NCBI RefSeq assembly: GCF_017868775.1
Contig: NZ_CP053381.1
Span: 2,418,001 to 2,482,000 of the forward strand
Length of the DNA stretch: 64,000 nucleotides
Source: Billgrantia sulfidoxydans
Lineage (GTDB): Bacteria > Pseudomonadota > Gammaproteobacteria > Pseudomonadales > Halomonadaceae
Direction of reading: 5' to 3'
Positions 7,541-64,000 of the stretch are shown here, one piece after another. The position numbers and the translations under genes are program-made. Numbering within the stretch: position 1 is the first letter of the stretch; each line of letters begins with the position of its first letter. A model generated the notes under the pieces. That model had not been told where the DNA came from and ran no database searches. It saw nothing but the letters and a program-made list of their open reading frames with translations.

Positions 7541-8962
<1,422 letters not shown>

Positions 8963-11099: not shown

Positions 11100-11338
11100 C
11101 AAAGTTGGCAGATCATCACCATCTGCACGATTTGTACAAATAGGCACTATCATGCTCACTTTTACCCACATTTCGTGGTGTGGGGGCACCAGCCCTGACA
11201 CAGCGGCACATGGCAGCGACGGCTACCGGCCAGGCAGTGGATTGGCCAGGAGCGCCGCATGGCTGCTACACCTACCAGTACAGGACAGATGCAAAAGGCA
11301 AAGCGAATGTCACGAGGCCTCAGGCCAGGGAGGACACG

Positions 11339-11863: not shown

Positions 11864-11993
11864 CTCAACCGGCCTCGCCCAAGCCTGTTCCGACCAACCT
11901 CTCGCTCGGTGACTGCAGGCGCGAATCAGCCTCAAAGATCTCCGGCGAGTAGTTCTCGCGGACGCAGGCCGTTTCGAAGACAGTCAAGGCCGA

Positions 11994-14860: not shown

Positions 14861-16144
14861 TCAATTCAGCACGCCGGGAAGATAGAGGGCGACGGCCGGG
14901 AACAGCACGAGCACCACGGCCATCAACAGCATGATGCCGACATAGGGAATGGCACCGACCATCACGTCGTTGAACGATCCCCCCTGTCGCACACCCTGCA
15001 CCACGTAGAGGTTGAGGCCGACGGGCGGCGTGATCAGCGCCATCTCGATCAGCAGAATCAGCAGAATGCCGAACCACACCGGGTCGAACCCCAGCCCGAT
15101 CATGATCGGCGCCACGATGGGAATCGTGATCACCATCAGCGAGAGCGTCTCGATGAAAAAGCCGAGCACGATGTACAGGGCGATCACCATCAGCAGCGTG
15201 GCATAGGGCCCCAGACCAGCGGTCTCGAGGAACGTCCTCAGCTCCCGTGTGATGCCGGCCGACGCCAGCACGAAGTTGAGGAAGTACGACGCGATGATGA
15301 TCAGCATGATCATGCCCGTGGTCCGCATCGTGCCATCCAGGGCTTCGACGATGATCGCCAGCGACAGCTTGCGCATGGCCACGGCGATCAGCAGCGCCCC
15401 GATGACCCCGAGCGAAGCGGCCTCGGTGGGTGTCGCCCAGCCGGCGTAGATCGACCCCACCACGACGCCGAACAACAGCAGCACGGGCACCAGGTGGCGC
15501 AGGCCCGAGAAACGCTCCCGCCAGCTGTGGCGGCGGCTGGGCCCGCCCAGGCTGGGCCGCCACAGGCAGATCAGCGCCGTGCCCAGGATGAACAGCAGGG
15601 CCAGCAGCAAGCCCGGCAGCAACCCCGCGGCAAACAGCCGGGGAATGGAGGTTTCCGTCAGGAATCCATAGACGATCAGGTTGATCGAAGGCGGGATCAT
15701 GATGCCCAGGGTGCCGCCGGCAGCGATCGAACCGGTGAACAGGCGCTGGTCGTATTTCATCTCCTTGCCCTGGGGGATCGCCACGGTACCGATGGTCGCC
15801 GCGGTGGCCACGCTGGAACCGGAAGTCGCCGAAAACAGCGTGGCAGTACCGATGTTGGCATGCAGCAGGCCGCCCGGCAGCCACGACAGCCAGCTCTCCA
15901 GCGCCCGGTAGGTCCCCTTGGCGATACCGGTACGCACCAGGATCTCCCCCAGCAGGATGAAGAGCGGAATCGCGATCAGCAGGAAGCTGTCCGACGCCGA
16001 CCACAGGACATCGCCCAGGGCCCTGACCAGAGGGAATGGAGAAAAGAATTCGTCGAGAAACAGGCCAAGCGCAATGAGCGTGGCAGCCACCGGCACGCTC
16101 AGCACCAATAGCAGCAGCAGAACCAGCAAAGCCATCAGAATCAT
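14861..16144 (-). CDS. TRAP transporter large permease, DctM family
   Basis: Large TRAP membrane subunit, 427 residues, with about 12 helices and the paired signature loops MIPPSINLIVYGFL and TPPVGLNLYVVQG. Also typical are the FSATSGSSVATAATIG segment and the acidic-free helices near the C-terminus. ATG 16144 overlaps the DctQ stop as ATGA. It is the permease for the binding protein at 16796-17863 and is followed 34 nt later by the DUF2848 gene in the same operon. Confidence 0.93.
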   Translation of the reverse strand: MILMALLVLLLLLVLSVPVAATLIALGLFLDEFFSPFPLVRALGDVLWSASDSFLLIAIPLFILLGEILVRTGIAKGTYRALESWLSWLPGGLLHANIGTATLFSATSGSSVATAATIGTVAIPQGKEMKYDQRLFTGSIAAGGTLGIMIPPSINLIVYGFLTETSIPRLFAAGLLPGLLLALLFILGTALICLWRPSLGGPSRRHSWRERFSGLRHLVPVLLLFGVVVGSIYAGWATPTEAASLGVIGALLIAVAMRKLSLAIIVEALDGTMRTTGMIMLIIIASYFLNFVLASAGITRELRTFLETAGLGPYATLLMVIALYIVLGFFIETLSLMVITIPIVAPIMIGLGFDPVWFGILLILLIEMALITPPVGLNLYVVQGVRQGGSFNDVMVGAIPYVGIMLLMAVVLVLFPAVALYLPGVLN

Positions 16145-42958: not shown

Positions 42959-44173
42959 TCACAACGCTTCTTTCAATGCTGCAGCTTTGTCCGTCTTCTC
43001 CCACGGGAAGGCGGTAAAGGTCTCGGTATGCTCCTGGCCGCTGATATCGGTCCAGTTGTAGCTGGCCTCGAAGGGCTCACGGCCAAAGTGACCATAGGCC
43101 GCGGTGAGCCGATACATCGGGTGAAGCAGGTCGAGCATGCGGGTAATAGCGAAGGGACGCAGGTCGAAGTGCTCGCGCACAAGCTCGATGATACGCGCCT
43201 CGTCCACCTTGCCGGTGCCAAAGGTGTTGATCGACACCGAGGTGGGCTCGGCCACACCGATGGCATAGGAGACCTGTATCTCACACTTGTCGGCGAGCCC
43301 TGCGGCGACCACGTTCTTGGCCACGTAGCGCCCGGCGTAGGCGGCACTGCGGTCGACCTTGGAGGGGTCCTTGCCGGAGAAGGCGCCGCCACCGTGGCGT
43401 GCCATGCCGCCGTAGGTGTCGACGATGATCTTGCGCCCGGTGAGGCCGCAGTCGCCCACCGGGCCGCCGATGACGAACTTACCGGTGGGGTTAATGTGAA
43501 ACTTGGTCTGTTCGGTGAGCCACTCGGCGGGGATCACCTCCTCGATGATCTCGCGCTTGACCATCCGCCGCAGCTCCTCCTGGTCGATCTCCGGCGCATG
43601 CTGGGTCGACAGCACCACCGCCTCGACGCCGCAGGGCATGCCCGCCTCGTCGTAGCGGAAGGTGATCTGGCTCTTGGCGTCCGGGCGGAGCCACGGCAGC
43701 AGGCCGTGCTTGCGCAGCTCGGCCTGGCGCTCCACCAGGCGGTGGGCATAATGGATCGGCGCAGGCATGAACGACTCCGTCTCGTTCGTGGCGTAGCCGA
43801 ACATCAGGCCCTGGTCACCCGCGCCCTGATCCTCCGGCTTGCTGCGATCCACCCCTTGGGCGATGTCCACGCTCTGCTTGCCGATCAAGTTGAGTACGCC
43901 GCAGGTCTCGCCGTCGAAACCGACCTCCGAGGAGGTGTAGCCGATGTCGATGATCACCCGACGCACCAGCTCTTCCAGGTCGATCCAGGCAGAGGTGCTG
44001 ATTTCCCCGGCGACAATCGCCACGCCAGTCTTGACCAGCGTCTCGCAGGCCACACGAGCATGCTTGTCGCGGGCGATAATGGCGTCCAGCACCGCATCGG
44101 AAATCTGGTCGGCGATCTTGTCCGGATGCCCTTCGGACACGGATTCGGAAGTGAACAGGGAGTATTCGCTCAT
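42959..44173 (-). CDS. metK: S-adenosylmethionine synthase
   Basis: Makes S-adenosylmethionine from methionine and ATP. The 404-residue protein shows [20 protein letters not shown] at the start, [19 protein letters not shown] and the glycine-rich [20 protein letters not shown], all active-site landmarks of MetK. ATG 44173 (MSEYSLFTS) has AGAGGA 6 nt upstream. It is a housekeeping gene of normal composition standing between gmd and the AT-rich O-antigen block, in the same direction as both. No SAM riboswitch is seen before it. The supplied SAM could serve the two nearby methyltransferases, but essential function is enough to explain it. Confidence 0.97.
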
Positions 44174-44238
44174 TAACATCCTCTTTTTACTATATGTTCT
44201 AATGATTAAAGCATCGAAATAATTTTGACGCCGAAGGC

Positions 44239-46497
44239 TCAATAGACTTTATTTATTTCATTCTCGTCGTTATCAACTGGGATGAGATGATAACCTTTAA
44301 GGGTAATCTGGTCCTCTTCACCAACAAAAACCCTCACCTCCAGATCTTGAACTTGCGTGCTAAGCTCAACATAGCCTTCAGCGATAATTCCGGAACCATT
44401 ATCCCTTCCTGAAATATGGAATTTTGCGTACTCAACTTTTCCTTTACCGCTGACCACATCAACCCATGCTGCGTTATTCACTCTAACCTCTCCACGGAGC
44501 ACAAGGTGGTATTTTCCAGGCTCAAAAGAAACATAAGGGCCAAAGTGGAGAAATCCCTCGTCTCCATCAGACACTATATTTCCATCACTCACCATCCCAA
44601 CTTGCCTAGGTGTTGATGATGAAAAGTGAGGCTGACGCAAACAAACAGGTTCAGAGCATATGCTTCTTGCCACTATAGATTCCAACCGCCCACTCTTCAA
44701 AAGTGGAAGATATTCAGTTTTTAAACGGATGACAGCATAATATTCTTCCCTTTCAATTTCCACAAAGCCAGAATTCTCAAGTTCAGAAGCCACAGGAGAA
44801 AGCTGTTCACGATATTCAACAGGATAAGGCCAACGGTGGGCCGCCCATAACATATCAATGTAAGGCAGCACAACCACATCTGCCTCATTTCTAGCGAGCA
44901 GAAGCAAGACGTCTTCAACGAAGTTATCGTGAACTTGTCCCATAGGGAACCGCAGAAGAGTACGCGGCCAGCGCTGCCTTGCATGCGAAAGATTCTTATC
45001 ACCACCAATATTATAAGATATTATGTCTAAACGTGAAGCAATGTAGTTAACAAGGAAGTCGTTTCGCCATGGCAAAAACACCACACGATCACCAGAATCA
45101 AGATCGTCCGCCATAACATCTACGAGTTGAGAGTCAATCTCCAAAAACATGGATCTGTTACGTACGTCTCTGACATGCTTATTAAACAAATCAGGGAGAT
45201 TAAACACAATCACAACCCCAAGAAAACAAATGCTTATTATAACCAAATTTTTTTTCTGGCTCCGAGAAACCCCAAGCATAATCAAACCCCATGCACCAAA
45301 TGCCCCTAAGCCCCCCCAGCGATAACTTGCCCTCATATTTCTAAAACCAGGAAGATTCTTTGAAAGAAGCTCTGAGCCTGTTGGCACAATAGCATACTCT
45401 TCATCCATCGTTGGTCCCAAACTGTAGTCTACAGGCTTTACAGAATTGAACTTTATTGATGGCCCCAAAGCCATGTAAAAGCCAAAAATAAAAATTAATA
45501 TTAGCGGGCATTTAGCAAAATGTTTCTTAACGAATATAGCAGAGAAAATAGCACCAACTAGGACCGGCAAAGCGAAAGAGGTAGTCCATACCGATGCGTC
45601 ACCAAAAAAAATATCCCCTGATCTTGGCTCACTCCACCCCAAAAAATCCGGTAGCCAATGGACACCCGCAGATGGGAACAAAAGGAACGTGACATCAACG
45701 CCCCAGCCACGAAAAAAATCAAGCGGAGCAGGATGAAATTGCGCCTTACCAATATATAAAGCATAACAGGCATATGCGATACCAAAACTAATTAAATGAA
45801 TACATAGCCGACCCAAAATTCGCTGACGTGAGCTTGACTCGCTAATAAACACCCAGCCACCAATCAAGCTGGCACCACTCGCAAACATCATAAAACTGTA
45901 TCCATCCATAAATATGGATAGTAGGCATACGGAAACGTAAGGGAAAAATATTTTGAATAATAACTGAAAATAAGTAGCATCAGACATAAGATCAATTCTA
46001 AACAGGGTAAAGGCAGCTAGAAAATATAGCGGAAGCAACGCAATCCCTGTAGATACCATAGAATAGCCAGAATGGTTCCACACCATTGGCATGGTTCCCC
46101 AGGCCAATGCACCTAAAATGGCAAGCAAGCGAGGCACATCAAACATGCGCCCTATCTTGTAGGCCGAAAAAAAAGCAACTGTTAACCACAGCACGACCAT
46201 AGCCGAATAGGCATCTATCGCATTCATGCCCAATGTCATAAAAACTGCTATTGGCCATACCCCGGCCAATCCAAATGCAATAGCAGCAGGCTCAGGGGCG
46301 CCGAAGTTGTGTGCGTAAATAGTTAGAAGAGATTCGTTAAGAAAAGATTGTGAAAATCCCGCTGCCCAGACTGCTTGCCCCAAGGTAGGACTAGCAAAAA
46401 ATGGCAAAGCACCATTGACGTGAAAAACAAACACCAAAGCCACAAGAAACATACAACGTACCAATGCTTCCTGTGAGTATCTAGCTGATCGATTCAT
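44239..46497 (-). CDS. Large multi-pass membrane protein, possible GT-C-type glycosyltransferase
   Basis: A 752-residue protein with about a dozen helices in the first 450 residues, then a soluble periplasmic part. The N-terminal half has the layout of GT-C/YfhO-like proteins, with acidic residues in the first loops ([20 protein letters not shown]). The part after about residue 450 includes [14 protein letters not shown], and the last 130 residues look like a beta-sandwich ([20 protein letters not shown]). No named family is certain. It is AT-rich and overlaps the flippase-like gene by 17 nt. With the GT2 and flippase-like genes upstream it may add a side sugar from a polyprenyl-phosphate donor in the periplasm. 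Confidence 0.7.
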
Positions 46498-47362
46498 TAT
46501 TTTTTCCCATACTTAACAACCAACTTGCCGAAAAATAAAACAAATCACCTGCTATAGTTACAACTCGCCCCAAAAGCACTGCTAGTAGCAAATCGGTAGG
46601 GGCTATAACACTACCCAAGAAAAAAAGAAGCACAACTTCTCTAACTCCGATACCAGCTGGCGCACCAGGCGTAACGAGTCCAGCAAGCCATGCGATTACA
46701 TAAGCGGCACACAATGCCGGAAAAGAGGGTAAAACAGTATAATCAGAAATGACAAGTGACAATACAAAAATAAAAATCACACCGGATATAGTTAGGAAAG
46801 CAACTTGCCAGACCAGAGCCATAGCTATATCACTAGAATACCATTGATATATCACAAAAATTAATGTGATGACTACCAGAGAAAACAATGCATAGGACAT
46901 CAGGTATGACAAGTCAGACCATACCAGGGGCACCACTAGTGACCCAAAAATGGCGCCAGCTATCACGATTAGCCCTAGTTCCCACAGCGCAGATTTAGCA
47001 AGAGCGCGAGCCGGAAAACCTGCAGCCATGCCCAAAGCCTGGCGTCCGGCTAGATGAAAGATATTGCCGGGTACGTATTTGGCTAATTGAGATAGCCCAT
47101 ATGTTTGAATTGCCCACTTCACACTTGACATTACTTTATTAAAAAAAAGTAAATGCCACCAAGCTCGGGCCAATAGAATGTTGGCGACACCGTAAAACAG
47201 TGAAAGTAAAACAACTATAAGCCAATCGGCAACATGAAATCGAGAGAAATCGATCTGATCAGAGTATGTGTCAAATTTCAGTAGGACAAAGACAACTCCC
47301 AGCAGACCAACCCCACCGCCAAATAAATGAAGCAAACGCTTCATTTGAAAACTTTTAACCAT
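46481..47362 (-). CDS. Flippase-like membrane protein (LPG synthase TM / UPF0104-type)
   Basis: A 293-residue protein with about eight helices. The family blocks are YGLSQLAKYVPGNIFHLAGR near residue 85 (the KYxPGxxxH motif) and LVTPGAPAGIGVREVVLLFF near residue 230 (the PGGxGxxE-like motif). Relatives include the membrane part of lysylphosphatidylglycerol synthase and AglD-type proteins thought to move lipid-linked sugars. It starts 4 nt after the methyltransferase stop. A role in flipping a polyprenyl-phosphate sugar made by the GT2 enzyme is inference. Confidence 0.78.
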   Translation of the reverse strand: MVKSFQMKRLLHLFGGGVGLLGVVFVLLKFDTYSDQIDFSRFHVADWLIVVLLSLFYGVANILLARAWWHLLFFNKVMSSVKWAIQTYGLSQLAKYVPGNIFHLAGRQALGMAAGFPARALAKSALWELGLIVIAGAIFGSLVVPLVWSDLSYLMSYALFSLVVITLIFVIYQWYSSDIAMALVWQVAFLTISGVIFIFVLSLVISDYTVLPSFPALCAAYVIAWLAGLVTPGAPAGIGVREVVLLFFLGSVIAPTDLLLAVLLGRVVTIAGDLFYFSASWLLSMGKNNESIS

Positions 47363-51553: not shown

Positions 51554-52752
51554 CAGTGGCTTTCCTGCTGCTGACTTGAACTGGACTTAAATTCAAAATA
51601 TAGTTGCTTTGCCCTTGGTGGGAGCTCTTCAAGACTATTGGGATTCAACAACCCACCATAGCAACCAGATGATACCCCCTTGGAAGTGTTTTTGATAAAA
51701 CGTCTATAGATTGAGCGCAACACTGGATAAAAGCCTAAGCGATCCGCAACCACAATTATTTTATGTCTTACAATATCATTGGGGTCAAGACACTTCCTGA
51801 CGACCGCCTTACATTTATACGAAATTTTGTCGCCTCCAACTTTTAGTCGAGCCTTTAATCCGTAATTTCGCAGGAGGCGTAACTGTTGTTGAAGCCAACG
51901 AAGCGGAGCAGTAATACGCCAAGAACGGCTAATAAGCAGTTCACTAACTTCTTCTTCAGCTTTTTCTGCTCTAGCCTCAGACTGTTTTAACTGAAAATTA
52001 ATGTATTCATCATATTTGTTCGATAGTTTCTCTAAAGAGAATCCGTACTCTCGATCAAACAAAACACTCATTCGACTTAGCAGTTTTTCTTCACCATCTT
52101 TTTGTGCCACTACAGCATAATCAGGGCTTACTCCACTCAAGACATCATACAATCGTATTTGTTCTTTCTCAAAAAGAAATTCTGGTTCTTGGAGATACAA
52201 TGTTTTTACACGCTGAAAACCCAAGTACTCAGAAATGAAAGATAGTAATTGGGCTGGGATTGGACGCTGGTGTGTAGGATCCAAATAAAAACGCGAAGTA
52301 CCAACAACTATATTTTCCGAATTAGGTGTTTCTAAAATTAGTAGTCCACCCGGTTTAAGCACCCGAAAAGATTCTTTTAATAAGGACTGCAAATCATTAA
52401 AAGGGATATGTTCAATAACATGAAATGCAGAGATAATTGTTACGCTCTCATCATCCATATCGCTAATACAAGATAGCGCATCTGCTTTATTGACATGAAG
52501 CCCACACTCATGGCATGCCGCCAACATGTCTTCATCTAGGTCCACACCTTGCGCAACAACCCCGCTATCTCTCAATAATTCCAGCCACTCACCTCTTCCA
52601 CACCCCAAGTCAAGCCCTGTTACATCAGGCACAGACTCTTTCAGAGCCTCTACAAATGGTAGATACACTTCGAGACGCGATTTAATCTCTTCCCTGTCGC
52701 CTCGAAACTTGTCCTCGAATGCCTTATAGAACCCTTTTCTTGTAACGTTCAT
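51553..52752 (-). CDS. Methyltransferase with coiled-coil C-terminus, probable O-antigen chain terminator (WbdD-like)
   Basis: A 399-residue protein. The N-terminal class I methyltransferase domain (about 45-200) shows VTGLDLGCGRGEWLELL, VAQGVDLDEDML, SAFHVIEHIPF and LKPGGLLILETPN. Residues about 225-275 are rich in charged heptads (QSEARAEKAEEEVSELL), predicting a coiled coil, followed by SRSWRITAPLRW, a motif common at the end of O-antigen enzymes. The kinase domain of E. coli WbdD is absent. It overlaps wzt by ATGA and precedes the two-domain GT4, so methyl capping of the non-reducing end to stop polymerisation and permit export is likely. Confidence 0.83.
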   Translation of the reverse strand: MNVTRKGFYKAFEDKFRGDREEIKSRLEVYLPFVEALKESVPDVTGLDLGCGRGEWLELLRDSGVVAQGVDLDEDMLAACHECGLHVNKADALSCISDMDDESVTIISAFHVIEHIPFNDLQSLLKESFRVLKPGGLLILETPNSENIVVGTSRFYLDPTHQRPIPAQLLSFISEYLGFQRVKTLYLQEPEFLFEKEQIRLYDVLSGVSPDYAVVAQKDGEEKLLSRMSVLFDREYGFSLEKLSNKYDEYINFQLKQSEARAEKAEEEVSELLISRSWRITAPLRWLQQQLRLLRNYGLKARLKVGGDKISYKCKAVVRKCLDPNDIVRHKIIVVADRLGFYPVLRSIYRRFIKNTSKGVSSGCYGGLLNPNSLEELPPRAKQLYFEFKSSSSQQQESH

Positions 52753-53960
52753 ACTTTTATCTCGGGCTCCATCCAGTTACAACCACTAAACTGCACTTTT
52801 CCATCATTTACAACATCGAAAACTAGAATCAAATCACGCCACTCATAATTTACACCCATATGATCATCCTGCGCATGCAAGGCTGTGACTATAGAGTAAC
52901 CACCAACACCGAGATTAACTGGGAATGAAATCGTAAAAAGGTATTCCTCCCCTGATTTGGGATGATGTATAACCTTACCCATATGCCAAGTGTTGGTGCC
53001 ATACATCATTTGTCCTAACCGGTCCTTGATCCCATACCCCAGCACCAGGCTGTCGATATCCTCGAACACCTTGACCTTGACCCTCAGCTCAACGGCTTCC
53101 CCCACCGCGACATGGTCCGTTTTGTCGCCCTTACTATTGTACAGGGCGACATCCTGGACTCTCGCCTCACCGGTGCCAGAGCTGGTTTGTACCTTGCCGT
53201 TATCCAGGCGCTTGACCTCGACGGTATTTTTCTCTTTCTCGGAAATGATGGCGTTGTAGTAATCAAAGACTTCTTCAGGATTGCTATCCTTGAGAATACT
53301 GCCTTGTTCGAGCAGGATGGCCCGATCGCACAGGCTCTGTATCGCGCTACGGTCGTGCGAGACGAGCATCAATGTGGTGCCTTGCTCTTGGAATTCACGA
53401 ATACGGTTGAAGCTCTTGTGCTGGAAATAGCTATCCCCCACCGAAAGGGCTTCATCGACGATCAGGATTTCCGGTCGGTACGCCGTGGCCACGGCGAAGG
53501 CCACGCGCATCTGCATGCCACTTGAGTAGGTACGCACCGGCTGGTCAAAGTACTCGCCGATTTCGGCGAAGGCTTCGATATCCGGCATGGCGTCTTGTAT
53601 CTGCGGGGTAGAGAAGCCCATCAGGCCGGCGGCATGGAAGACGTTTTCCCGCCCCGAGAGTTCCGGGTTGAACCCCATGCCCAGTTCGAGGATGGCGGCG
53701 ATGCGGCCATTGACCTCGATACTTCCTTCGGTGGGTTGCAGGGTGCCGGTGATCATCTTGAGCAGGGTGCTCTTCCCTGCCCCGTTCTGGCCCACGATGC
53801 CGATGGCCTCGCCGGGCTGAATCTCGAAACTCAGGTGCCGCAGTACCCAATGCTCTTCATTGGGCTGACACGGAATTCCCAGCCAGCGCCCGAAGCGGTG
53901 CCACTCGGTCTTGTAGGTGCGATAGGCCTTGCCCAGGTTGTCTACGATCATCAGGCTCAT
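52749..53960 (-). CDS. wzt: O-antigen ABC exporter ATP-binding protein with chain-recognition C-terminal domain
   Basis: A 403-residue protein. The ATPase domain (about 1-240) has Walker A GIVGQNGAGKSTLLK, the signature YSSGMQMRVAFAVA, Walker B ILIVDEALSVGD and switch VSHDRSAI. The C-terminal domain (from about 255, EARVQDVALYNSKGD onward) is a beta-sandwich of the Wzt-C type that binds the capped end of the finished chain. ATG 53960 overlaps the wzm stop as ATGA. Base composition falls sharply near 53010-53040, inside the C-terminal domain: the ATPase part is GC-rich like the genome, the last third is AT-rich like the next genes. Confidence 0.93.
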   Translation of the reverse strand: MSLMIVDNLGKAYRTYKTEWHRFGRWLGIPCQPNEEHWVLRHLSFEIQPGEAIGIVGQNGAGKSTLLKMITGTLQPTEGSIEVNGRIAAILELGMGFNPELSGRENVFHAAGLMGFSTPQIQDAMPDIEAFAEIGEYFDQPVRTYSSGMQMRVAFAVATAYRPEILIVDEALSVGDSYFQHKSFNRIREFQEQGTTLMLVSHDRSAIQSLCDRAILLEQGSILKDSNPEEVFDYYNAIISEKEKNTVEVKRLDNGKVQTSSGTGEARVQDVALYNSKGDKTDHVAVGEAVELRVKVKVFEDIDSLVLGYGIKDRLGQMMYGTNTWHMGKVIHHPKSGEEYLFTISFPVNLGVGGYSIVTALHAQDDHMGVNYEWRDLILVFDVVNDGKVQFSGCNWMEPEIKV

Positions 53961-54751
53961 AAGGCATCCACCAATTCGGCACTCGCGCGACGGAACAGGA
54001 ACAGACCGAAGGCCAGGATCAGGAAGCCAACCGTCATGATGAGGATCACTTCCCCGAGGTGCGGCGCCTGGCCGTACACCAGCACGTCGTGGTAGCCGCG
54101 GATGATCGGGTAGATGGGGTTGAGTACCAGCAGCTGCTGCAAGCGTTCCGGAATGATATTCACCGGATAGACGATAGGCGTGAACCAGAACGCCACCTGC
54201 AACAGGATCGGCACCGCCTGGCCGATATCGCGAATGAAGACATTGAGAATGCCGAGCACCAGACCCACGCCGAGGGCCAGCGAAACCATCGCCAGGGTTA
54301 ACACCGGCAACCACAATAACTGAACCGTCGGGAAGTGCCCCAGCACCGCGAACACGCCGAGGATCGCCAGCAGCAGCATCACGTTGTTGAGCAGCGCCGA
54401 GCCGACCACGATGGTGGGTAGGGTGATCTTGGGAAACTTCATCTTCTTCATCAGGTTGCCCTGCTCGATGAACAGGTTGAGGCAACGGTTGATGATCTCG
54501 GAGAACAGCATCCAGCCCAGAAAGCCTGCGGTCAGGTAGATCGCGTAGGCGTACTGGCTGTCGATGCCGGGAAGCTTGGCCGAGAGCACGGCAGAGAGGA
54601 TCAATGCATAAATCAGCACCTGAGCCAGTGGCTGCAGGATCATCCAGAACCCGCCCAGCTTGCTTCGCGCGAAACGAGTGACGAACTCGTTCTTGATCGA
54701 ACTGACTACGAAGCCGCGATAGGCCCACAGGCCCTTCAACATGTCAGACAT
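53957..54751 (-). CDS. wzm: O-antigen ABC exporter permease
   Basis: Membrane subunit of 264 residues of the ABC-2 polysaccharide exporter, with six helices. It has the amphipathic N-terminus (MLKGLWAYRGFVVSSIKNEF), RFARSKLGGFWMILQPLAQV and the re-entrant region near ILNVFIRDIGQAVPILLQVA. With Wzt it moves undecaprenyl-linked O-antigen across the inner membrane. AGGAG lies 5 nt before ATG 54751, which overlaps the end of manB by 16 nt. Confidence 0.94.
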   Translation of the reverse strand: MSDMLKGLWAYRGFVVSSIKNEFVTRFARSKLGGFWMILQPLAQVLIYALILSAVLSAKLPGIDSQYAYAIYLTAGFLGWMLFSEIINRCLNLFIEQGNLMKKMKFPKITLPTIVVGSALLNNVMLLLAILGVFAVLGHFPTVQLLWLPVLTLAMVSLALGVGLVLGILNVFIRDIGQAVPILLQVAFWFTPIVYPVNIIPERLQQLLVLNPIYPIIRGYHDVLVYGQAPHLGEVILIMTVGFLILAFGLFLFRRASAELVDAL

Positions 54752-56112
54752 TGCCACTCCTGCAACCGGGCTTCCAGTTCGGCAACCTTGGCGTTGACCA
54801 GATCGGCATCGCCCCGGCTTTCCACGTTCAGGCGCAATAGCGGCTCGGTATTGGAGCCACGGAGGTTGAACCGCCAGTCGTCGAATGCCAGGCTGATGCC
54901 GTCGGTGGTATCGAACTGCTGCGCCTGGCCCCGATAGTGCTGTTCGAAGCGCGCCAGGGTGTCCTGCACATCGTGGACACGGTAGTTGCGCTCGCCGCTG
55001 CACGGATAGGCGGCCATGCGCTGGTCGACCAGTTCGGCAAGCGTTTTCCCGGTACGCGACATCAGCGCAGTGACCAACAGCCACGGGATCATGCCACTGT
55101 CGCAGTAGGCAAAATCACGGAAGTAATGGTGGGCGCTCATCTCGCCGCCGTAGATCGCGTTTTCCTCGCGCATGCGCTCCTTGAGGAAGGCATGCCCGGT
55201 CTTCGATTGCACGGCGATTCCCTGGGCCTGCTTTACCTGATCGAGCGTATTCCAGGTCAGGCGCGGGTCATGGATGATCTTCTCGCCGGGGTTGTCGGCG
55301 AGCAGCATCTCTGCCAAGAGGCCAACCAGGTAGTAACCCTCGATGAATCGTCCGTTGGCATCGAAGAAGAAGCAGCGGTCGAAGTCGCCGTCCCAGGCGA
55401 TGCCCAGATCGCAACCATGCTGCAGCAGCGCCTGACGGGTCTGCTCGCGATTCTCCGGTAGCAAGGGGTTGGGCACGCCGTTGGGGAAATGTCCATCGGG
55501 GGTTTCGTTGATCAATACCCACTCGAAGGGCAGCCGCTCGGCCAGTGCCCGGATCACCGGGCCGGCCGCGCCGTTGCCGGGGTCCGCGAGGACCTTCAGA
55601 GGCTTGAGTTCGGAGGGCGCCACATACTCGAGCAGCTTGGCCAGGTAGGCCGACTTGTCGAGGCGCTGCGTTATGCGGCCATGACTACCGGCCACATGGC
55701 CGAGATCCGCATTCTCGACGCGTACCTTGATCGCCTTCAAGCCGGTGTCGCCGCTGATCGGGCGAGATTCGGCACGCACCAGCTTCATGCCATTGTAGCC
55801 CTTGGGGTTATGGCTGGCGGTGACCATTACGCCGGCGTCGACCCGGTAGTGGCTGGTGGCGAAGTAGACTTCCTCGGTACCGCACAGGCCGATATCGATG
55901 ACATCGGCCCCGGCAACGGTGATGCCGTCCATCAGTGCCTCGGCCAACCAGGGGCTTTCGAGGCGCATGTCGCCGCCCACCACCACATTCTTGGCATTCA
56001 GCTCGGCGACCAGGGCCCGCCCAATACGGTAAGCCAGGTCGGCGTTGAGCTGCTCGGGCACTTGGCCGCGAATATCGTAGGCCTTGAAGCACTGGGTCGT
56101 GATCGGTTTCAT
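54736..56112 (-). CDS. manB: Phosphomannomutase/phosphoglucomutase
   Basis: A 458-residue alpha-D-phosphohexomutase that converts mannose-6-phosphate to mannose-1-phosphate. Landmarks: FKAYDIRGQVPEQLN, the phosphoserine loop VMVTASHNPKGYNGMKL (Ser near 98), the metal loop AWDGDFDRCFFFDA, the sugar-binding GGEMSAHHYFRDF, and the phosphate-binding FNLRGSNTEPLLRLNVE. ATG 56112 is chosen; the frame is open to 56196 but without a better site. It lies 17 nt after manC and feeds it. Confidence 0.94.
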   Translation of the reverse strand: MKPITTQCFKAYDIRGQVPEQLNADLAYRIGRALVAELNAKNVVVGGDMRLESPWLAEALMDGITVAGADVIDIGLCGTEEVYFATSHYRVDAGVMVTASHNPKGYNGMKLVRAESRPISGDTGLKAIKVRVENADLGHVAGSHGRITQRLDKSAYLAKLLEYVAPSELKPLKVLADPGNGAAGPVIRALAERLPFEWVLINETPDGHFPNGVPNPLLPENREQTRQALLQHGCDLGIAWDGDFDRCFFFDANGRFIEGYYLVGLLAEMLLADNPGEKIIHDPRLTWNTLDQVKQAQGIAVQSKTGHAFLKERMREENAIYGGEMSAHHYFRDFAYCDSGMIPWLLVTALMSRTGKTLAELVDQRMAAYPCSGERNYRVHDVQDTLARFEQHYRGQAQQFDTTDGISLAFDDWRFNLRGSNTEPLLRLNVESRGDADLVNAKVAELEARLQEWQCLTC

Positions 56113-56128
56113 CCTTATTGATCCCCAA

Positions 56129-57574
56129 TCACTGTTCATCGACACGGCCGTAGGTGTCCTCGAAGCGCACGATATCGTCTTCACCGAGATAGTCACCGCT
56201 CTGCACCTCGATGAGCACCAGGGGGATCACGCCGGGATTGGCCAGGCGATGATTGTGGCCAGCACGGATGAAGGTTGACTCGTTGGTATCCAGGTAGAAC
56301 TCCTGCTCCCCATTCGTGACGCGCGCCATACCGCTGACGACGATCCAATGCTCGCTGCGGTGATGATGCATCTGCAGCGAAAGCGAGGCGCCGGGCTTGA
56401 CCTCGATACGCTTCATCTTGAAGCGGTGGCCCTGCTCCAGGGTGGTGTAGGTTCCCCAAGGGCGATGCACGGTACGGTGCAGCAGGTGGGCATCGTGCTC
56501 GTTAGCCTTCAGGTGCTTGACGATCTGTTTGACATCCTGAGCATGGTCCTTGTGCGCGATAAGCACGGCGTCAGGCGTATCGACTACCAGCAGGTCTTCG
56601 ATGCCGACCAGGGCGGTCAAGCGCTCGGGGCTATAGACATAGTTGTTGCGGGCTTCGTGCACTAGCACCTCACCTTCACAACGATTGCCGTTAGCATCGG
56701 CCTCGGTCAACTCGCTCATGGCGTTCCAGGAGCCAATGTCGCTCCAGCCGATGTCGCAAGGCACCACGGCAACCTTGGAAGAGCGCTCCATCAGGGCATA
56801 GTCTATAGAGATATCCGGCACGTCGCTAAACTGATCAGGATCGAGCGACAAGCACTGATAAGCTTCCCCTTGGCTGCTGCGTGACGCAGCCAAGGTGGCG
56901 GCAACGGTTTCCATCACGTCGGGTGCATGTTCCCGCAACTCCTCGATCACCAGGCCTACGGGGAAACAGAACATGCCAGAGTTCCAGTAGTAGCGCCCAG
57001 CCTCAAGATACCCTTTCGCAGTTTCTAGATTCGGTTTCTCGACGAAACGAGCGACCCGATAGCCGCTGGCTAACGTGTTCGCTTTGTCGGCCTCGATGTA
57101 ACCGAACCCGGTTTCAGGATATTGGGGTTCAATACCGAACGTCACGAGCCAACCCTGCGAGGCGATTTCCTTGGCCTTGTTGACGGCTGCCGAGAAGGCC
57201 GTTTCATCCTGGATCAGGTGATCGGCCGCGAGCACCAGCATCAGTGTATCGGGGCCGTAAGCTTCGTTCAGTTGAAGCGCTGCCGCGGCCACGGCCGCCG
57301 AGGTGTTGCGGCCGAAGGGCTCCAGTACATAGCGTAGCGGGGTGTCTTCACTGCCCACCTTGCGGTACTCATCTTCCGTCTTGAAAAACAGCTCACGATT
57401 GGTGACCGTCAATACCTCGCTGACACCATCCAGGCCACTGGCTCGCAGGAAAGTCTTCTGGATCAGGTTCTGACCATCCGGGAGCGACATGAAAGGCTTG
57501 GGATGTGTTTCACGGGATACCGGCCAGAGGCGGCTTCCCACCCCCCCTGACATGATGACGGGTACGAAATGCAT
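56129..57574 (-). CDS. manC: Mannose-1-phosphate guanylyltransferase / mannose-6-phosphate isomerase
   Basis: Bifunctional enzyme of 481 residues supplying GDP-mannose. The N-terminal nucleotidyltransferase has VIMSGGVGSRLWPVSRETHP near residue 7, LVLAADHLIQD, and VARFVEKPN. The C-terminal cupin isomerase domain (from about 365) has RPWGTYTTLEQGHRFKMKRI, then HHHRSEHWIVVSGMARV with the metal His residues. Start ATG 57574 has AAGAGA upstream. GDP-mannose is the precursor for gmd/rmd and for mannosyl transfer. Confidence 0.95.
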   Translation of the reverse strand: MHFVPVIMSGGVGSRLWPVSRETHPKPFMSLPDGQNLIQKTFLRASGLDGVSEVLTVTNRELFFKTEDEYRKVGSEDTPLRYVLEPFGRNTSAAVAAAALQLNEAYGPDTLMLVLAADHLIQDETAFSAAVNKAKEIASQGWLVTFGIEPQYPETGFGYIEADKANTLASGYRVARFVEKPNLETAKGYLEAGRYYWNSGMFCFPVGLVIEELREHAPDVMETVAATLAASRSSQGEAYQCLSLDPDQFSDVPDISIDYALMERSSKVAVVPCDIGWSDIGSWNAMSELTEADANGNRCEGEVLVHEARNNYVYSPERLTALVGIEDLLVVDTPDAVLIAHKDHAQDVKQIVKHLKANEHDAHLLHRTVHRPWGTYTTLEQGHRFKMKRIEVKPGASLSLQMHHHRSEHWIVVSGMARVTNGEQEFYLDTNESTFIRAGHNHRLANPGVIPLVLIEVQSGDYLGEDDIVRFEDTYGRVDEQ

Positions 57575-57645
57575 GGTTTATCTCTTTAAGTATTGAGTCA
57601 GATTAAATCGGTTGCGCCACGAGAAAGTAGCATTAGCGTTCTACT

Positions 57646-57740
57646 GAACATGTTGCTCCCATCGAAGATCATCGGTTCGGCGAGCTGCTGCTTGATCTAT
57701 TCGAGGTCGGGGTGCGGGAGCACTGCCACTCGGAACGATC
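57646..57740 (-). pseudogene. Fragment of ugd (3' end), broken
   Basis: These 95 bases match the 3' end of the intact ugd gene at 61632-61728. The first 52 bases (57646-57697) differ at only 3 positions; the rest is similar with small indels. Read on the minus strand the frame gives [17 protein letters not shown], against [17 protein letters not shown] in the intact protein, but a TAG replaces the Leu codon just before it. The rest of the 57575-57775 gap holds no gene. The fragment lies in the same direction as ugd, so a direct repeat now brackets the cysNC-cysD-cysQ module. Confidence 0.85.
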
Positions 57741-57775
57741 TTGCATAGACTGGCTGCGGGAACGATTCCACGTTT

Positions 57776-59689
57776 TTACAGCTCCTTCAGTAGCCGGCTG
57801 ACGATTTCCTGCTGGCTCAGTTCTGCAGTATTGACTGTCAGTTCTGCTGATTTAGGCACTTCATAGGGGCTGCTGATCCCCGTGAAGTCCTTGATCTTGC
57901 CTTCCCGTGCCTTTTGGTAGAGCCCTTTGGGGTCGCGCTGCTCGCAGACATCCAGCGGGGTGTCGACGTGCACCTCGATGAAATCGCCTTCGCTGAACAA
58001 CGCCCGGGCGGCATCACGGTCGCTGCGGAACGGCGAGATGAAGGCGGTAATCACGATGATGCCCGCTTCGGCGAACAACCTGGCCACTTCGCCCACGCGG
58101 CGGATGTTCTCGGCGCGGTCTTCCTCGCTCATGCCTAGGTCCTTGCACAGGCCGTGGCGTACGTTGTCGCCGTCCAGCAGCATGGTGTGGTAACCACGGC
58201 GGTTTAGCTCCACTTCCAAGGCATTGGCCAGGGAGGATTTGCCTGCACCAGAGAGCCCTGTGAACCAGATGCACTTGCCCTGATGGCCGGTGAGCTGCTC
58301 GCGCATGGCTTGGGTCACGCTGGTGCGGTTCCACACCACGTTGGCCTTGCTCTCGTGCTCGCGGAATTCGTAGGGCAGTTCGCTATCCAGCGGCTGGTGG
58401 ATCATCCCCGCTCCGACCGTTACGTTGCTGAGGCGGTCGATGACGATGAAGCAGCCGGTACCGGGACTGGTGCGGTAGTCATCGACGGGCACAGGCGCCG
58501 TCAGTTCGATATGGCAGCGCGCGATGGCGTTGAGATCGAGATTTTCGGCGTGGCGGTGCTCGAGCGTGTTGACGTCGACCTGGTAGTCGATGGCCGTGAC
58601 CTTGCCGGCCACGGCCCGGGTGGCAAGCTTTAGGTCGTAGAGCCTCCCGGGCTCCAGCGGCGCTTCATGCATCCACACGATATCTGCATCGAAGCCATTG
58701 GCAAGCGGCACCTTGGCTTCCTCGGCGACGAGCCAGTCGCCACGGGAGATATCAATCTCATCCTCCAGGGTGAGGGTGATCGCCTGGCCCGGGTAGACGG
58801 CTTCGAGGTCGCCATCGAAGGTGACGATTCGTTCCACCTTGGACACCTTGCCGGAAGGCAACGCTCGCACGGCCTGGCCACGATATACGATACCGCTAGC
58901 GAGCGTGCCGGAGTAGCCACGAAAATCGAGATTGGGGCGATTGACGTACTGCACCGGGAAACGCAGGTCGCGCAGGTTCTGGTCGTGGCTGATCTCGACG
59001 CTTTCCAGCAGCTCCAGCAAGGCCGGCTTATCGTACCAGCCCATGGTCTCGCTCTTGTTGACGACGTTATCGCCCTTGAGGGCCGACATCGGCACGAAGC
59101 GAATGTCGCGGGCATGGAGCTTCTCGGCAACGGCCTGGTACTCCTCGACGATCTCGTCGAAGCGTGCCTGGGAGTAATCGACCAGATCCATCTTGTTCAC
59201 TGCCACGATCAGGTGCTGGATGCCCAGCAGATCGCAGATGAAACTATGGCGCCGGGTCTGGGTCTGCACGCCGTAGCGGGCATCGATCAGGATGATCGCC
59301 AGGTTGGCGGTGGAGGCCCCGGTGGCCATGTTGCGAGTGTACTGCTCGTGCCCCGGCGTATCGGCGATGATGAACTTGCGCTTGTCGGTGGAGAAGAAGC
59401 GGTAGGCCACGTCGATGGTGATGCCCTGCTCGCGCTCCGACTGCAGGCCGTCGACCAGCAGCGCCAGATCCACCTCTTCCCCGGTAGTGCCAACTTTTTT
59501 CGAGTCCCTGGCGATGGCGGCCAGCTGGTCCTCGTAGATCATCTTGGAGTCGTGCAGCAGCCGGCCGATCAGGGTTGACTTGCCGTCGTCGACGCTGCCG
59601 CAGGTGATGAAGCGCAGCAGGTCCTTGTTCTCGTGCTCGCGGAGATAGGCTTCGATATCCTCGGCGATCAGTGTCGATTGGTGTGCCAT
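57776..59689 (-). CDS. cysNC: Bifunctional sulfate adenylyltransferase subunit 1 / adenylylsulfate kinase
   Basis: A 637-residue fusion. The N-terminal GTPase (CysN, about 1-440) has [31 protein letters not shown] and AVNKMDLVD, followed by two beta-barrel domains. The C-terminal APS kinase (CysC, from about 460) has [34 protein letters not shown] and [10 protein letters not shown]. With CysD it makes APS from ATP and sulfate, then phosphorylates it to PAPS. The ATG overlaps the cysD stop. The NodQ-like fusion next to polysaccharide genes suggests PAPS for sulfated glycans as well as for cysteine synthesis. Confidence 0.96.
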
Positions 59690-60606
59690 CAGAAGTACCC
59701 CTCGCGCTTCTTCTTCTCCATCGAGCCCGCCTGGTCGTGGTCGATGGCCCGGCCGCTGCGCTCGCTGGTGCGGGTCAGCAGCATCTCCTGGATGATCTCA
59801 GGCAGGGTGTCGGCCCTGGACTCCACCGCGCCGGTCAGCGGGTAGCAGCCCAGGGTGCGGAAGCGCACCCACTTCTCCTCGGGCACCTCGCCGGGGGCGA
59901 GCGGCATCCGCTCGTCGTCGACCATGACCAGCATGCCGTCGCGCTCCACCACCGGGCGCGGGGCGGCGTAGTAGAGCGGCACGATGGGAATCTGCTCCAG
60001 GTAGATGTACTGCCAGATGTCCAGCTCGGTCCAGTTGGAGAGCGGGAAGGCGCGGATCGACTCGCCCTTGTTGACCCGGGCGTTGTAGAGGTTCCACAGC
60101 TCGGGACGCTGGCTCTTGGGGTCCCAGCGGTGGAACTTGTCGCGGAACGAGAATACCCGCTCCTTGGCGCGGCTGGCCTCCTCGTCGCGACGCGCGCCGC
60201 CGAAGGCGGCATCGAAGCCGTACTTGTCCAGCGCCTGCTTGAGCGCCTGGGTCTTCATCACGTCGGTATAGCCGCTGGAGCCGTGATCGAAGGGGTTGAT
60301 GCCCGCGGCGCGCCCCTCTTCGTTGATGTGCTCTATCAGCTCCATGCCCAACTCGCCGGCCATGCGGTCGCGGAAGGCGATCATCTCGCGGAACTTCCAG
60401 GTGGTGTTGATGTGCATCAGCGGGAACGGCGGCGGCCCGGGGTAGAAGGCCTTGCGCGCCAAATGCAGCATCACCGAGGAGTCCTTGCCGATGGAGTAGA
60501 GCATCACAGGGTTGCGGAACTCGGCGGCCACCTCGCGGATGATATGAATCGACTCGGCTTCGAGTTGTTTGAGGTGGGTCTGCCGTTCGGTAGAAATTTC
60601 AGGCAT
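59689..60606 (-). CDS. cysD: Sulfate adenylyltransferase subunit 2
   Basis: A 305-residue catalytic subunit of ATP sulfurylase. The PP-loop is [19 protein letters not shown] near residue 37; [19 protein letters not shown] near residue 135 and [19 protein letters not shown] near residue 168 are typical, as is the C-terminal [20 protein letters not shown]. It is coupled to cysNC by a one-base stop/start overlap and follows cysQ by 22 nt. Confidence 0.97.
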
Positions 60607-60628
60607 CGAAAAAACCTTGGGTTCTTTC

Positions 60629-61459
60629 TTAACTCTTCAGACTAGCCCGCAGGGCCGATTCCCAGCGCGAATCCCGCTCGCCGGCCACGATGAAGAACGG
60701 ATTGAGCACACTCTCCTGCTGGTTGCAGCGCAGCGGCTCTAGGGTATGGGCGTTCAGCACCTGGCCGCCCGCTGCAGTGACCACGGCCTGGGCCGCCGCC
60801 GTGTCCCATTCGCTGGTCGGTGCCAGGCGCGGATAAAGATCGGCCTTGCCCTCGGCAACGAGGCAAAGCTTGAGCGAGCTGCCCATGGTTGCACATTCAT
60901 GATTGGGCAGAATGCGACAGAAGGCTTCGAATTCCTCCGAGCCATGAAGACGGCTGCCCACTACCTGCCAGGCCTCTTGGTCGGGATCTGGCAGCGCGCG
61001 CACGGTGATGGTATGGCACGGCCCCTCGTCTACCTGTTTCCATGCGCCCTGCCCCTGTTGCCCGATCCAGGTGGTGCGCAGTACAGGCGCATGGACGATG
61101 CCGAACACCGGCACGCCATCCTCGATCAACGCCACGTTGAGAGTGAATTCGCCGTTCTTCTTGATGAACTCCTTGGTGCCGTCGAGCGGGTCGATCAACC
61201 AGTAGCGCTGCCAGGCCTTGCGCGTGGCGAAAGGAATCTCCGCGGATTCCTCGGAAAGAGTCGGCACCTGTGGGGCAAGGTTTTCCAGCAGATCCACCAG
61301 GGCGTGGTGGGAGGCCATATCCGCTTCGGTCAGTGGGCTCTTGTCATCCTTGGTCTCGACGCTGAAGCCGTGATCGTAGATCGAGATCACCTCGCGCCCC
61401 GCGGCAAGAACGCCATCGATCAAGCGGGCGCGCATGCGATCAGTAACGAAACTCGTCAA
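60629..61459 (-). CDS. cysQ: 3'(2'),5'-bisphosphate nucleotidase
   Basis: A 276-residue enzyme of the inositol monophosphatase fold that hydrolyses PAP, the by-product of PAPS use. Metal-binding motifs are [31 protein letters not shown] and [18 protein letters not shown]. The start is TTG 61459, supported by AGAGG 7 nt upstream; the next ATG (61435) has no ribosome binding site and would remove the first helix. It is the first gene of the cysQ-cysD-cysNC set. Confidence 0.92.
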
Positions 61460-61577
61460 AACAAACCTCTCAAGATGGCCATACCAGCGGCATGAGCCTT
61501 CATGCGGAAACGCCGACGATCAGGCTTGGGCAGACATAAGCAAGAAGCAAAACGTCGAACTCAACCTTCACCAAGAG

Positions 61578-62900
61578 CTATCGCCCCACCGAGTAATAAG
61601 TGAACCCCTTGATCGCCATGCGCTTCGGCTCGAACATGTTGCGCCCATCGAAGATCAGCGGCTCGGCGAGCTGCTGCTTGATCAGCTCGAATTCCGGGGC
61701 GCGGAAGCTCTGCCATTCAGTGACGATCACCAGGGCATCGGCGCCGCGCAGGGTGGCTTCCTTGGTACCGCACAGGGAGAGGTCATCGCGGTTGCCGTAG
61801 ATTCGCTGGGCCTCTTCCATGGCTTCCGGGTCAAAGGCCTGCACCTTGGCGCCCGCCTCCCACAACGCTTCCATCAGCACGCGGCTGGGGGCTTCGCGCA
61901 TGTCGTCGGTGTTGGGCTTGAAGGCCAGGCCCCAGATGGCGAAGGTCTTGTCTTTCAGGTTGCCCTGGTAGTGCTTGTGGATCTTCTGGAACAGGGTGGT
62001 CTTCTGTTCCTCGTTGCGCGCTTCCACCGCCTTGAGCACCTTGGCATCAAAGTCGATGGCGTCGGAAGTGCGAATCAGTGCCTGCACGTCCTTGGGGAAA
62101 CAGGAGCCGCCGTAACCCACGCCGGGATAAATGAAGTGGTAGCCGATGCGCGGGTCGGAACCGATGCCCTGGCGCACCATTTCGATGTCCGCCCCGAGGC
62201 GCTCGGCCAGGTTGGCCATTTCGTTCATGAAGCTGATCTTGGTGGCCAGCATGCAGTTGGCGGCGTACTTGGTCAGCTCGGCGCTTCGCACATCCATCAC
62301 GATCATCTTGTCCTGCTGGCGGCTGAACGGCGCGTAGAGTTCGCGCAGCATGTCTTCCGCCACCCGGCTGGAGGTGCCGATGATGATGCGGTCGGGCCGC
62401 TGGCAGTCGCTGACCGCGCTGCCCTCTTTCAGGAATTCCGGGTTGGAGACCACGTCGAAGCGCAGGTCCTTGCGCCCGCGGGCTTCCAGCACGTGATCCA
62501 CCTTGTCGCGCACCTTGTCGGCGGTGCCCACCGGCACGGTGGACTTGTTGATGATGACCTGGTCGCGCTCCATGTGCTGGGCGATGGTCTCGGCCACGGC
62601 CAGCACGTACTTGAGGTCGGCGCTGCCGTCTTCGTCCGGCGGGGTGCCCACGGCGATGAACTGCACCTGGCCGTGCTTGACGCCTTCGGCGGCATCGGTG
62701 GTGAACTTGAGCCTGCCGGCGGCATGGTTCTCCTTCACCAGCGGCTCCAGGCCCGGCTCGTAGATGGGAATCTCGCCCTTGCTCAGGCGCTCCACCTTGG
62801 CGGCATCCACGTCCACGCACACCACGTGGTGGCCCACGTCGGCCAGCACGGCTCCCTGCACCAAGCCCACGTAGCCGGTTCCGAATACGGTAACGTTCAT
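61578..62900 (-). CDS. ugd: UDP-glucose 6-dehydrogenase
   Basis: A 440-residue NAD-dependent enzyme making UDP-glucuronate. It has [20 protein letters not shown] at the N-terminus, [11 protein letters not shown] and the catalytic Cys in [15 protein letters not shown] near residue 263, then the C-terminal [25 protein letters not shown] stands 6 nt before ATG 62900. The last part of the gene is duplicated as a broken fragment at 57646-57740. UDP-glucuronate could feed the core, capsule or O-antigen, but no dedicated user is recognised in the window. Confidence 0.96.
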
Positions 62901-62985
62901 TGCCGTTCCTTTATGTACGCTCTTCTCTAAGAGATATAGCGGGCAATGATGTTCCCGCTACCTTGAATCTGTTGCGCGGCTCTGC

Positions 62986-64000
62986 TCACGCCGTGGCCGG
63001 TGCGAGTGCACCCTTCGCAGCGCCTGTGTCATCAGCGAGAGAATCGCCACCCAAGGTGACTCTCATCTCATGCCCTGCCTCTTCGGCCCACTCCTGCAGC
63101 TTGGCCTTGAGCGCGGCCTGGGCGTGGGGGTCGCCGTGCACCAGGCGCACTTCCCGCGGCGGGTGGCGCATGCGGCGCACGAAGTTGAGCAGGTCATGCT
63201 GGTCGGCGTGGGCCGAGTAGCCGCTCACGGTTTCCACCCGGGCGCGAATGTCGATGCGCTGGCCGTCGAGCATGACCCAGCCGCCCTTGGGCCCAAAGCG
63301 CTGAATGTCGCGGCCGGGGGTGCCGTGGGCCTGGTAGCCGGTGAACAGCACACAGTGGCGTTCGTCGCCGAGCATGCGCTGGAGGTAGTTCACCACCCTG
63401 CCGCCGCTGGCCATGCCGCTGGCGGCGATGACCACGGCCGGCCGGCCGCTCTCGGCCAGGTAGGCGACGGTCTGCTCGTGTTCCTGGTGGCTGTCCACGG
63501 TGTAGAGATTCTCGAAGCTGAGCGGATGGCGGCCGCTGCGCAGTGTCTTGTGCGCTTCGGCGTCCCACCACGGCTTGAGTTCGCGGTACACCTCGGTGAA
63601 GCGGGCGGCCAGGGGGGAATCGACGATGATTTCGAGCTCGCGCCAGCGCTCGTTGCGGGCGTTATGGATCAGCCCTTCCAGCTCGTAGAGCAGTTCCTGA
63701 GTGCGGCCCACGCTGAAGGCGGGGATCACCACCGTGCCGCCGTTGGCGAGCGCCCTGTCGATGGCGGCTTTCAATCGCACGCGGCGGTGGCGCCTGTCTT
63801 CATGCAGGCGGTCGCCGTAGGTGCTCTCGAGCACCAGCACGTCGGCACGATACGGCGGTTTGGGCGCGGGCAGCAGCGGCGCGTAGGGCGCGCCCAGGTC
63901 GCCGGAGAAAACGGTGCGCTGGGCCTGACCGCTTGCTTTCTCCAGCGTATCCACTTCCACGTAGGCGGAGCCGAGGATGTGCCCGGCGCGCTGTAGCTTG
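62986..64000 (-). CDS. MBL-fold beta-CASP metallo-hydrolase, RNA-processing type (partial, N-terminus off the right edge)
   Basis: The frame is open to the right edge; the first visible residues read KLQRAGHILGSAYVEVD, the His-containing motif in the middle of the metallo-beta-lactamase domain, so the N-terminal HxHxDH part lies outside. Visible further: LVLESTYGDRLHED, the beta-CASP block GTVVIPAFSVGRTQELLYEL, IAASGMASGGRVVNYLQRM and the C-terminal VSGYSAHADQHDLLNFVRR and VHGDPHAQ. Such proteins are RNA exo- or endonucleases related to CPSF73. It is likely a housekeeping neighbour at the right boundary of the LPS locus. Confidence 0.88.
   Translation of the reverse strand, partial: KLQRAGHILGSAYVEVDTLEKASGQAQRTVFSGDLGAPYAPLLPAPKPPYRADVLVLESTYGDRLHEDRRHRRVRLKAAIDRALANGGTVVIPAFSVGRTQELLYELEGLIHNARNERWRELEIIVDSPLAARFTEVYRELKPWWDAEAHKTLRSGRHPLSFENLYTVDSHQEHEQTVAYLAESGRPAVVIAASGMASGGRVVNYLQRMLGDERHCVLFTGYQAHGTPGRDIQRFGPKGGWVMLDGQRIDIRARVETVSGYSAHADQHDLLNFVRRMRHPPREVRLVHGDPHAQAALKAKLQEWAEEAGHEMRVTLGGDSLADDTGAAKGALAPATA

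Follow-up and report, generated by a model that had tools for sequence, protein, structure and literature searches.

The 64,000-nt stretch of the Billgrantia sulfidoxydans genome considered here (NZ_CP053381.1, positions 2,418,001 to 2,482,000; hereafter the window) is part of a 4.49-Mb single-contig genome. It carries a polysaccharide locus in which the sulfate-activation genes cysNC, cysD and cysQ lie between an intact ugd gene and a decayed piece of ugd next to manC. This ugd relic is a well-supported scar of recombination or insertion at ugd. Judged by gene order and sequence, the locus appears to be a joint of two locus types, ugd-permease-cysQ-cysD-cysNC (type 1) and ugd-manC-pmm-wzm-wzt (type 2). 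Both types are present in relatives and both halves are present in the window; the relic lies where the type 2 ugd ends, and the permease is cut to its tail. We consider it probable (roughly 0.6) that the cys module entered a resident ugd-manC locus last, by recombination anchored in ugd. The first-pass annotation of this DNA had described neither the permease tail nor the signs of a joint between two locus types.

Along the minus strand, the beta-CASP gene is followed by ugd, cysQ, cysD, cysNC, the relic, manC, pmm, wzm and wzt, and then by methyltransferase and glycosyltransferase genes. The elements that frame and form the sulfate-activation segment are:

61578..62900, minus strand: ugd, UDP-glucose dehydrogenase family, intact, 440 amino acids (aa); PF03721, PF00984, PF03720
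61470..61526, minus strand: relic of a permease (CitMHS/TrkA_C) tail, last 18 codons and stop, one internal TGA; found by ungapped 57-nt window scan
60629..61459, minus strand: cysQ, PAP (3'-phosphoadenosine 5'-phosphate) phosphatase family, 276 aa, TTG start; PF00459
59689..60606, minus strand: cysD, ATP-sulfurylase small subunit, 305 aa; PF01507; 93-96% nt identity to the four nearest relatives
57776..59689, minus strand: cysNC, fused ATP-sulfurylase GTPase subunit and APS (adenosine 5'-phosphosulfate) kinase, 637 aa; PF00009, PF22594, PF01583
57741..57775, minus strand: 35 bp from the cysNC stop to the relic, with the joint within or next to them; unrelated, in a by-eye comparison, to the post-cysNC flanks of 5 relatives
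57646..57740, minus strand: ugd 3' relic, codons ~391-423, two 1-nt deletions, TAG; 97 columns, 84% to the window's own ugd
57575..57645, minus strand: decayed or deleted ugd end and manC leader; last 27 nt before manC 24/27 identical to the G041 ugd-manC leader

The relic repeats part of the 3' region of ugd, as the first-pass annotation had proposed. The first 52 bases differ at 3 positions (49/52 identical), and the gapped match of 57646-57740 to 61632-61728 spans 97 columns at 84%, corresponding to ugd nt 1173-1269, codons ~391-423 of 440. An independent repeat search returned a direct repeat of 67 nt at 87% (57646-57712 / 61632-61698) with a spacing of 3986. The relic and intact ugd thus point the same way, about 4 kb apart, with cysNC, cysD and cysQ between them, just as had been annotated. 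The layout is that of a complete gene (ugd), a cargo (the cys genes) and, in direct orientation, a 3' part of the first gene (the relic). The pair has a local score of 110; 1000 mononucleotide shuffles reach at most 28 and 1000 dinucleotide shuffles at most 35, and a chance match was rejected on the latter value. Searched as DNA against its own genome, the relic finds intact ugd at E 6.1e-21 and its next match at E 0.2. It carries the stop reported earlier, a TAG, and two 1-nt deletions, so it is not a reading frame. The match to ugd ends outside the 97 columns: 13/35 positions are identical in the 35 bases before the relic, and the last 17 ugd codons are unrecognizable next to it unless large gaps are allowed. 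A short, out-of-frame match of this kind might be put down to chance or to a short conserved peptide, with no scar at all, but the shuffle scores and the collinearity of the segment with the ugd-manC joint of the relative G041 leave that explanation virtually no probability.

We searched the 201-bp gap that holds the relic against 90 genomes of the genus, the window's own included (E 1e-3, at most nine candidates scored per genome). At least 21 of the 90 match it, and among the matches listed a whole-gap match occurs only in the window's genome. By their coordinates, 17 of the 20 rows from other genomes correspond to intact ugd genes, and the remaining 3 are ugd tails (G024, G068, G016). A search of a plasmid collection with 57400-57900 gave no match. 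The idea that the relic was kept because it serves manC as a promoter or terminator is not supported, as a consensus scan of 57500-57900 found neither, and the relic is too short for its divergence to give a date. Insertion-sequence transposition was rejected: there is no transposase domain among the scanned proteins from 52749-63999. The cys cargo is not bracketed by any of the 9 inverted pairs listed.

The manC side of the locus is illuminated by G041: its beta-CASP gene is followed by one further gene and then by ugd, manC, pmm, wzm and wzt, and ugd and manC are 55 bp apart. There are no cysNC, cysD or cysQ genes in the 17.5 kb read at this locus, and fused cysNC was not found in the G041 genome (one match, residues 1-434). 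A relative that has ugd beside manC and lacks the cys genes, proposed earlier as a check, thus exists. Aligned to G041, the window runs from the 3' part of ugd through a shortened, scrambled stretch into the manC leader, which is 24/27 identical just before the start codon. Given that the relic and the manC leader are collinear with the ugd end and leader of G041, the relic is best read, from this alignment, as the remainder of a ugd that once adjoined manC. Two findings would have spoken for another origin, namely cysNC beside manC with unrelated DNA in the gap in related genomes, or a match limited to a short peptide, and neither was seen; for manC this statement draws on one genome of 275. 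G041 is the only cargo-free relative found and supplies the whole of the manC-side comparison. The window's manC itself is present only in the window and in G041 among 275 family genomes, and the next manC is 71% identical. The genes held in common with G041, and the neighbour at the other end of the locus, are:

56129..57574, minus strand: manC, first gene of the block common with G041; PF00483, PF01050; 98% aa and 95% nt identity to G041
54736..56196, minus strand: pmm/manB, common with G041; PF02878, PF02879, PF02880; 94.7% nt
53957..54751, minus strand: wzm-type ABC (ATP-binding cassette) exporter membrane protein, 264 aa, common with G041; PF01061; 97% aa over 264/264
52749..53960, minus strand: wzt-type ABC exporter ATPase, 403 aa, common with G041, more diverged; PF00005, PF14524; 77% aa over 403/403
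62986..63999, minus strand: beta-CASP/RMMBL protein gene, extending beyond the window end, the usual ugd neighbour (16/20 fetched loci with the window's ugd type); PF10996, PF07521

The shared block changes character inside the exporter genes (52749-54751), where wzm is 97% but wzt 77% identical to G041 at the amino acid level. Further into the polysaccharide cluster, an S-adenosylmethionine synthetase gene (42959-44242, minus strand) is co-directional with two methyltransferase genes.

The cys side has its counterpart in type 1. We read 40 loci for gene order, and in 5 of these (G009, G074, G084, G089 and G025) ugd, permease, cysQ, cysD and cysNC follow one another and are succeeded by other genes. 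The ugd is of the window's type in G009 and G074 and of another type, 65-66% identical in amino acids, in G084, G089 and G025. The type 1 permease is a 588-aa protein with CitMHS and TrkA_C domains; it occurs in 18 of the 40 loci, whole or nearly whole in 16, and in all 18 it lies upstream of cysQ. Divergence within the window's cys module (57776-61459) is uneven: relative to G084, cysD is 96% but cysQ 83% identical in nucleotides, which hints at further exchange.

A second scar lies at the other end of the cys genes. At 61470-61526 (minus strand), within the 118-bp gap between ugd and cysQ, is what remains of the permease found ahead of cysQ in relatives, namely its tail. When every 57-nt window on either strand of the 64 kb is compared, 61470-61526 ranks highest for each of five relatives' permease tails, with 40, 39, 36, 37 and 39 of 57 positions identical and runner-up windows at 29-32. 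Gapped scores are borderline (35, 30, 24, 33 and 25, against shuffle maxima of 29, 32, 29, 36 and 31, with approximate ends for G009); it is the ungapped scan of all windows that settles the identity of the tail, and the gapped scores are not kept as proof. The closest whole homologue of the permease in the window's genome is 46% identical and lies elsewhere. G006 likewise retains just a permease tail (residues 523-588) before cysQ.

Partial copies of ugd recur in the genus. Full-length ugd queries were run on 21 genomes with the window's ugd type and on 25 others, and the other 44 of the 90 genus genomes were searched at E 1e-20, among the matches listed. At least 11 separate partial copies are not cut by contig ends: one each in G000, G068, G024 and G052, two in G082 and five in G016, which thus gives 5 of the 11, so that these are not independent. 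Nine of the 11 are 3' parts without a start (those of G052 and G024 with a further internal deletion), and none consists of the head only. The two exceptions are both in G016: at C2, ~1 kb of other DNA separates a head (1-31) from a tail (338-444), and the piece at C47 comes from the interior of the gene, about 216-332. This count leaves out pieces at contig ends (G051 C6, C16 and C51; G054 C10 and C22; G061 C134), a gene with a run of N in G056, a frameshifted but whole gene in G070, and pieces of distant paralogues below 45% identity in G005, G053 and G084. In G068, G024 and G052, the ugd piece lies 0.2-1.8 kb downstream of an intact ugd in the same direction. In a second genome collection, the best 80 of 583 loci hold a second ugd piece in one case, and this is the G052 genome. 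G010 (L127) has a 1471-bp direct repeat, 97.5% identical (6812-8282 / 10202-11672), that comprises the end of an upstream ligase gene and ugd and flanks cysQ and a cysC gene on either side, a bracket built like that of the window but fresh.

Some arrangements are more elaborate. On G016 contig 37 (L128), three successive ugd 3' pieces are separated by other reading frames, two of which look alike by eye, and a 3' part of cysNC follows. Downstream of a manC-cysC-pmm cluster, G082 (L272) has two ugd tails (11326-12042 and 15537-15626) and, after them, a beta-CASP gene fragment and the permease. In G012, G031, G028 and G047, ugd of the other type is present in two whole copies each. Tentatively, ugd could be a recurrent anchor in this genus for the capture of polysaccharide cassettes, each capture leaving a ugd 3' piece, so that strings of such tails would record past swaps (fresh in G010, intermediate in G052 and G024, old in the window); we see this as possible, if somewhat short of an even chance. 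Within the open-access literature, we recognized no published accounts of ugd remnants in this family (Billgrantia or Halomonas loci).

In the scenario we favor, DNA with ugd (or a ugd flank) and the cys module would have entered a resident ugd-manC locus, with ugd as the recombination anchor. The simplest route would be a single crossover with a truncated circle; alternatively, one-sided homology could have been combined with an illegitimate second end. Either route would put the complete gene ahead of the cargo and leave a 3' part of ugd on the far side, adjoining manC, to decay there. The first-pass annotation had likewise suggested an insertion or recombination that used ugd as a homology arm. 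Comparison with G041 supports the scar; the homology arm we infer from the tail-type scars and from the fresh ugd-cysQ-cysC-ugd repeat in G010.

The bases retained in the relic bear on the order of events. It is 87.4% identical to ugd of G043, 86.3% to that of G009, 85.3% to the window's own and 80.0% to that of G041. At 11 sites where the window's ugd and that of G041 differ, the relic agrees with the former at 7 and with the latter at 2; at 7 sites where the window's ugd and that of G043 differ, it agrees with G043 at 4 and with its own ugd at 2. Its TAG is one change from the CAG of G043, G009, G008 and G068, while the window's ugd has CTG and that of G041 CTA. A relic that is not G041-like fits a resident ugd of native type, displaced when the ugd-cys DNA arrived. 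By rpoB, G043 is the nearest relative (96%, versus 94% for G008), and yet ugd and the beta-CASP gene are closer to G008 (92.5 and 91.2% nt) than to G043 (90.8 and 88.9%), as if this stretch had been exchanged.

Several points weigh against late entry of the cys module. The order of events is judged from few positions, the relic being decayed and only 97 columns long, and ugd may be exchanged independently, so the ugd of G041 need not be the original partner of its manC. No near-identical donor of ugd and cys genes was found (best cysD 96%, cysNC 92%, cysQ 86%), no junction microhomology is definable, with 35 bp and 51 bp unassigned at the two joints, and among the 11 partial ugd copies 2 are something other than a plain 3' part. 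Classical one-sided insertion, according to the sections of PMC3240628 cited here, is expected to delete rather than duplicate part of the resident gene. Furthermore, the fourfold-site distance to G041 is 0.159 for manC and 0.123 for pmm, against 0.261 for ugd; together with the occurrence of this manC in 2 of 275 genomes, this implies that the manC block also moved between lineages rather recently. Such a transfer suits the opposite order, in which a resident ugd-permease-cys locus received a manC-pmm-wzm block from a G041-like locus, and the incoming DNA carried along a ugd tail of the donor, which came to lie behind cysNC. The 95% nucleotide identity of manC and pmm to G041 and the existence of type 1 in 5 relatives are in keeping with this order, but it would lead one to expect G041-like alleles in the relic, which are seen at only 2 of 11 differing sites, and G043, the nearest relative by rpoB, lacks fused cysNC. 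We therefore regard it as rather unlikely.

Alternatively, ugd could first have been duplicated in tandem, the cys genes lying between the two copies at the outset; the second copy would then have worn down to 97 columns, and incoming DNA would have displaced nothing. The two copies in the G010 repeat resemble its starting point, and G052 retains pieces of two parts of a second ugd behind ugd-cysQ. Wear of a whole gene does not, however, predict the composition seen, with 3' parts making up 9 of the 11 partial copies and no copy consisting of a head only, and it leaves the type 2 arrangement of G041 unexplained; this course of events strikes us as improbable. As to the future of the present bracket, the first-pass annotation envisaged a loop-out between the copies that would delete the sulfate-activation genes. 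Such an event appears doubtful on the sequence, because the longest exact match between the copies is 21 bp; 97 columns at 84% with such a run are short and diverged for RecA-dependent exchange.

The three cys genes of the window are intact, co-directional reading frames. They would make 3'-phosphoadenosine 5'-phosphosulfate (PAPS), the sulfate donor, and remove PAP. Fused cysNC, cysD and cysQ, which are features of the PAPS module of sulfated-capsule loci, are present, with the permease gene reduced to its tail. A scan of 20 proteins encoded at 26743-52752 found no sulfotransferase domain, though for two of them (46481-47362 and 44239-46497) there is no Pfam family at all; two sulfotransferase-like genes lie elsewhere in the genome, near 2643485 and 1888294. 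Since no sulfotransferase was recognized among the scanned locus proteins, the cys module may serve a distant enzyme or may be a leftover. The type 1 loci of G074 and G089 have sulfotransferase genes downstream. A protein of G025 suspected to be a sulfotransferase gave no match, and the candidate tested in G009 is a pyruvyl transferase. One organism for comparison is Cobetia marina, which we take to belong to the same family as the window organism. As described in the cited parts of its report (PMC11766843), C. marina has a PAPS operon with the same cys genes and a sulfate permease, which serves a sulfated capsule. Like the window, it has fused cysN/cysC, cysD and cysQ in a surface-sugar locus; unlike it, C. 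marina has the sulfate permease and cluster sulfotransferases, where the window has a permease remnant and none among the 20 scanned proteins.

Related events have been described in other systems. In E. coli, with a donor homologous at one end, 56 of 60 tested clones gave a polymerase chain reaction product of the duplicated gene part, and 14 sequenced clones had 109-950 bp duplications ascribed to a single crossover of truncated circles (PMC3240628, in the sections cited here). The window has the same layout, but its case is natural, old and decayed; from classical homology-facilitated illegitimate recombination the same sections expect a deletion, not a duplication, and find that rare. In Vibrio type VI effector-immunity arrays and Rhs loci, 3' ends are displaced and repeated events yield strings of them (excerpts of PMC5361080). 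There too, the conserved upstream part is the anchor, new cargo lies behind it and the old 3' part is shifted downstream, whereas in the window a metabolic gene within a polysaccharide locus serves as the anchor, and what was displaced is a dead fragment in place of a functional orphan. In the galF/gnd/ugd-flanked cps loci of Enterobacteriales, ugd flanks a variable surface-sugar locus and moves between locus families, as stated in the cited portion of PMC7305143; ugd flanks a surface-sugar locus in the window as well but lies beside a beta-CASP gene, and remnants of ugd are no subject of that portion. Remnants of genes are also on record in pneumococcus, where a deletion left a 25-bp fragment of a lost capsule gene (PMC8515895), and in Acinetobacter sugar loci, where some genes are called remnants (PMC3628348), each in the passages cited.

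No new system is involved here: the window adds a case, backed by good comparative evidence, to a kind of event already known. In a single locus, with both parental arrangements present in relatives, it shows how a surface-sugar locus is rebuilt from parts. Tails of ugd provide a simple marker for past swaps in related genomes, and the presence of sulfate-activation genes in a sugar locus need not mean that the present sugar is sulfated.

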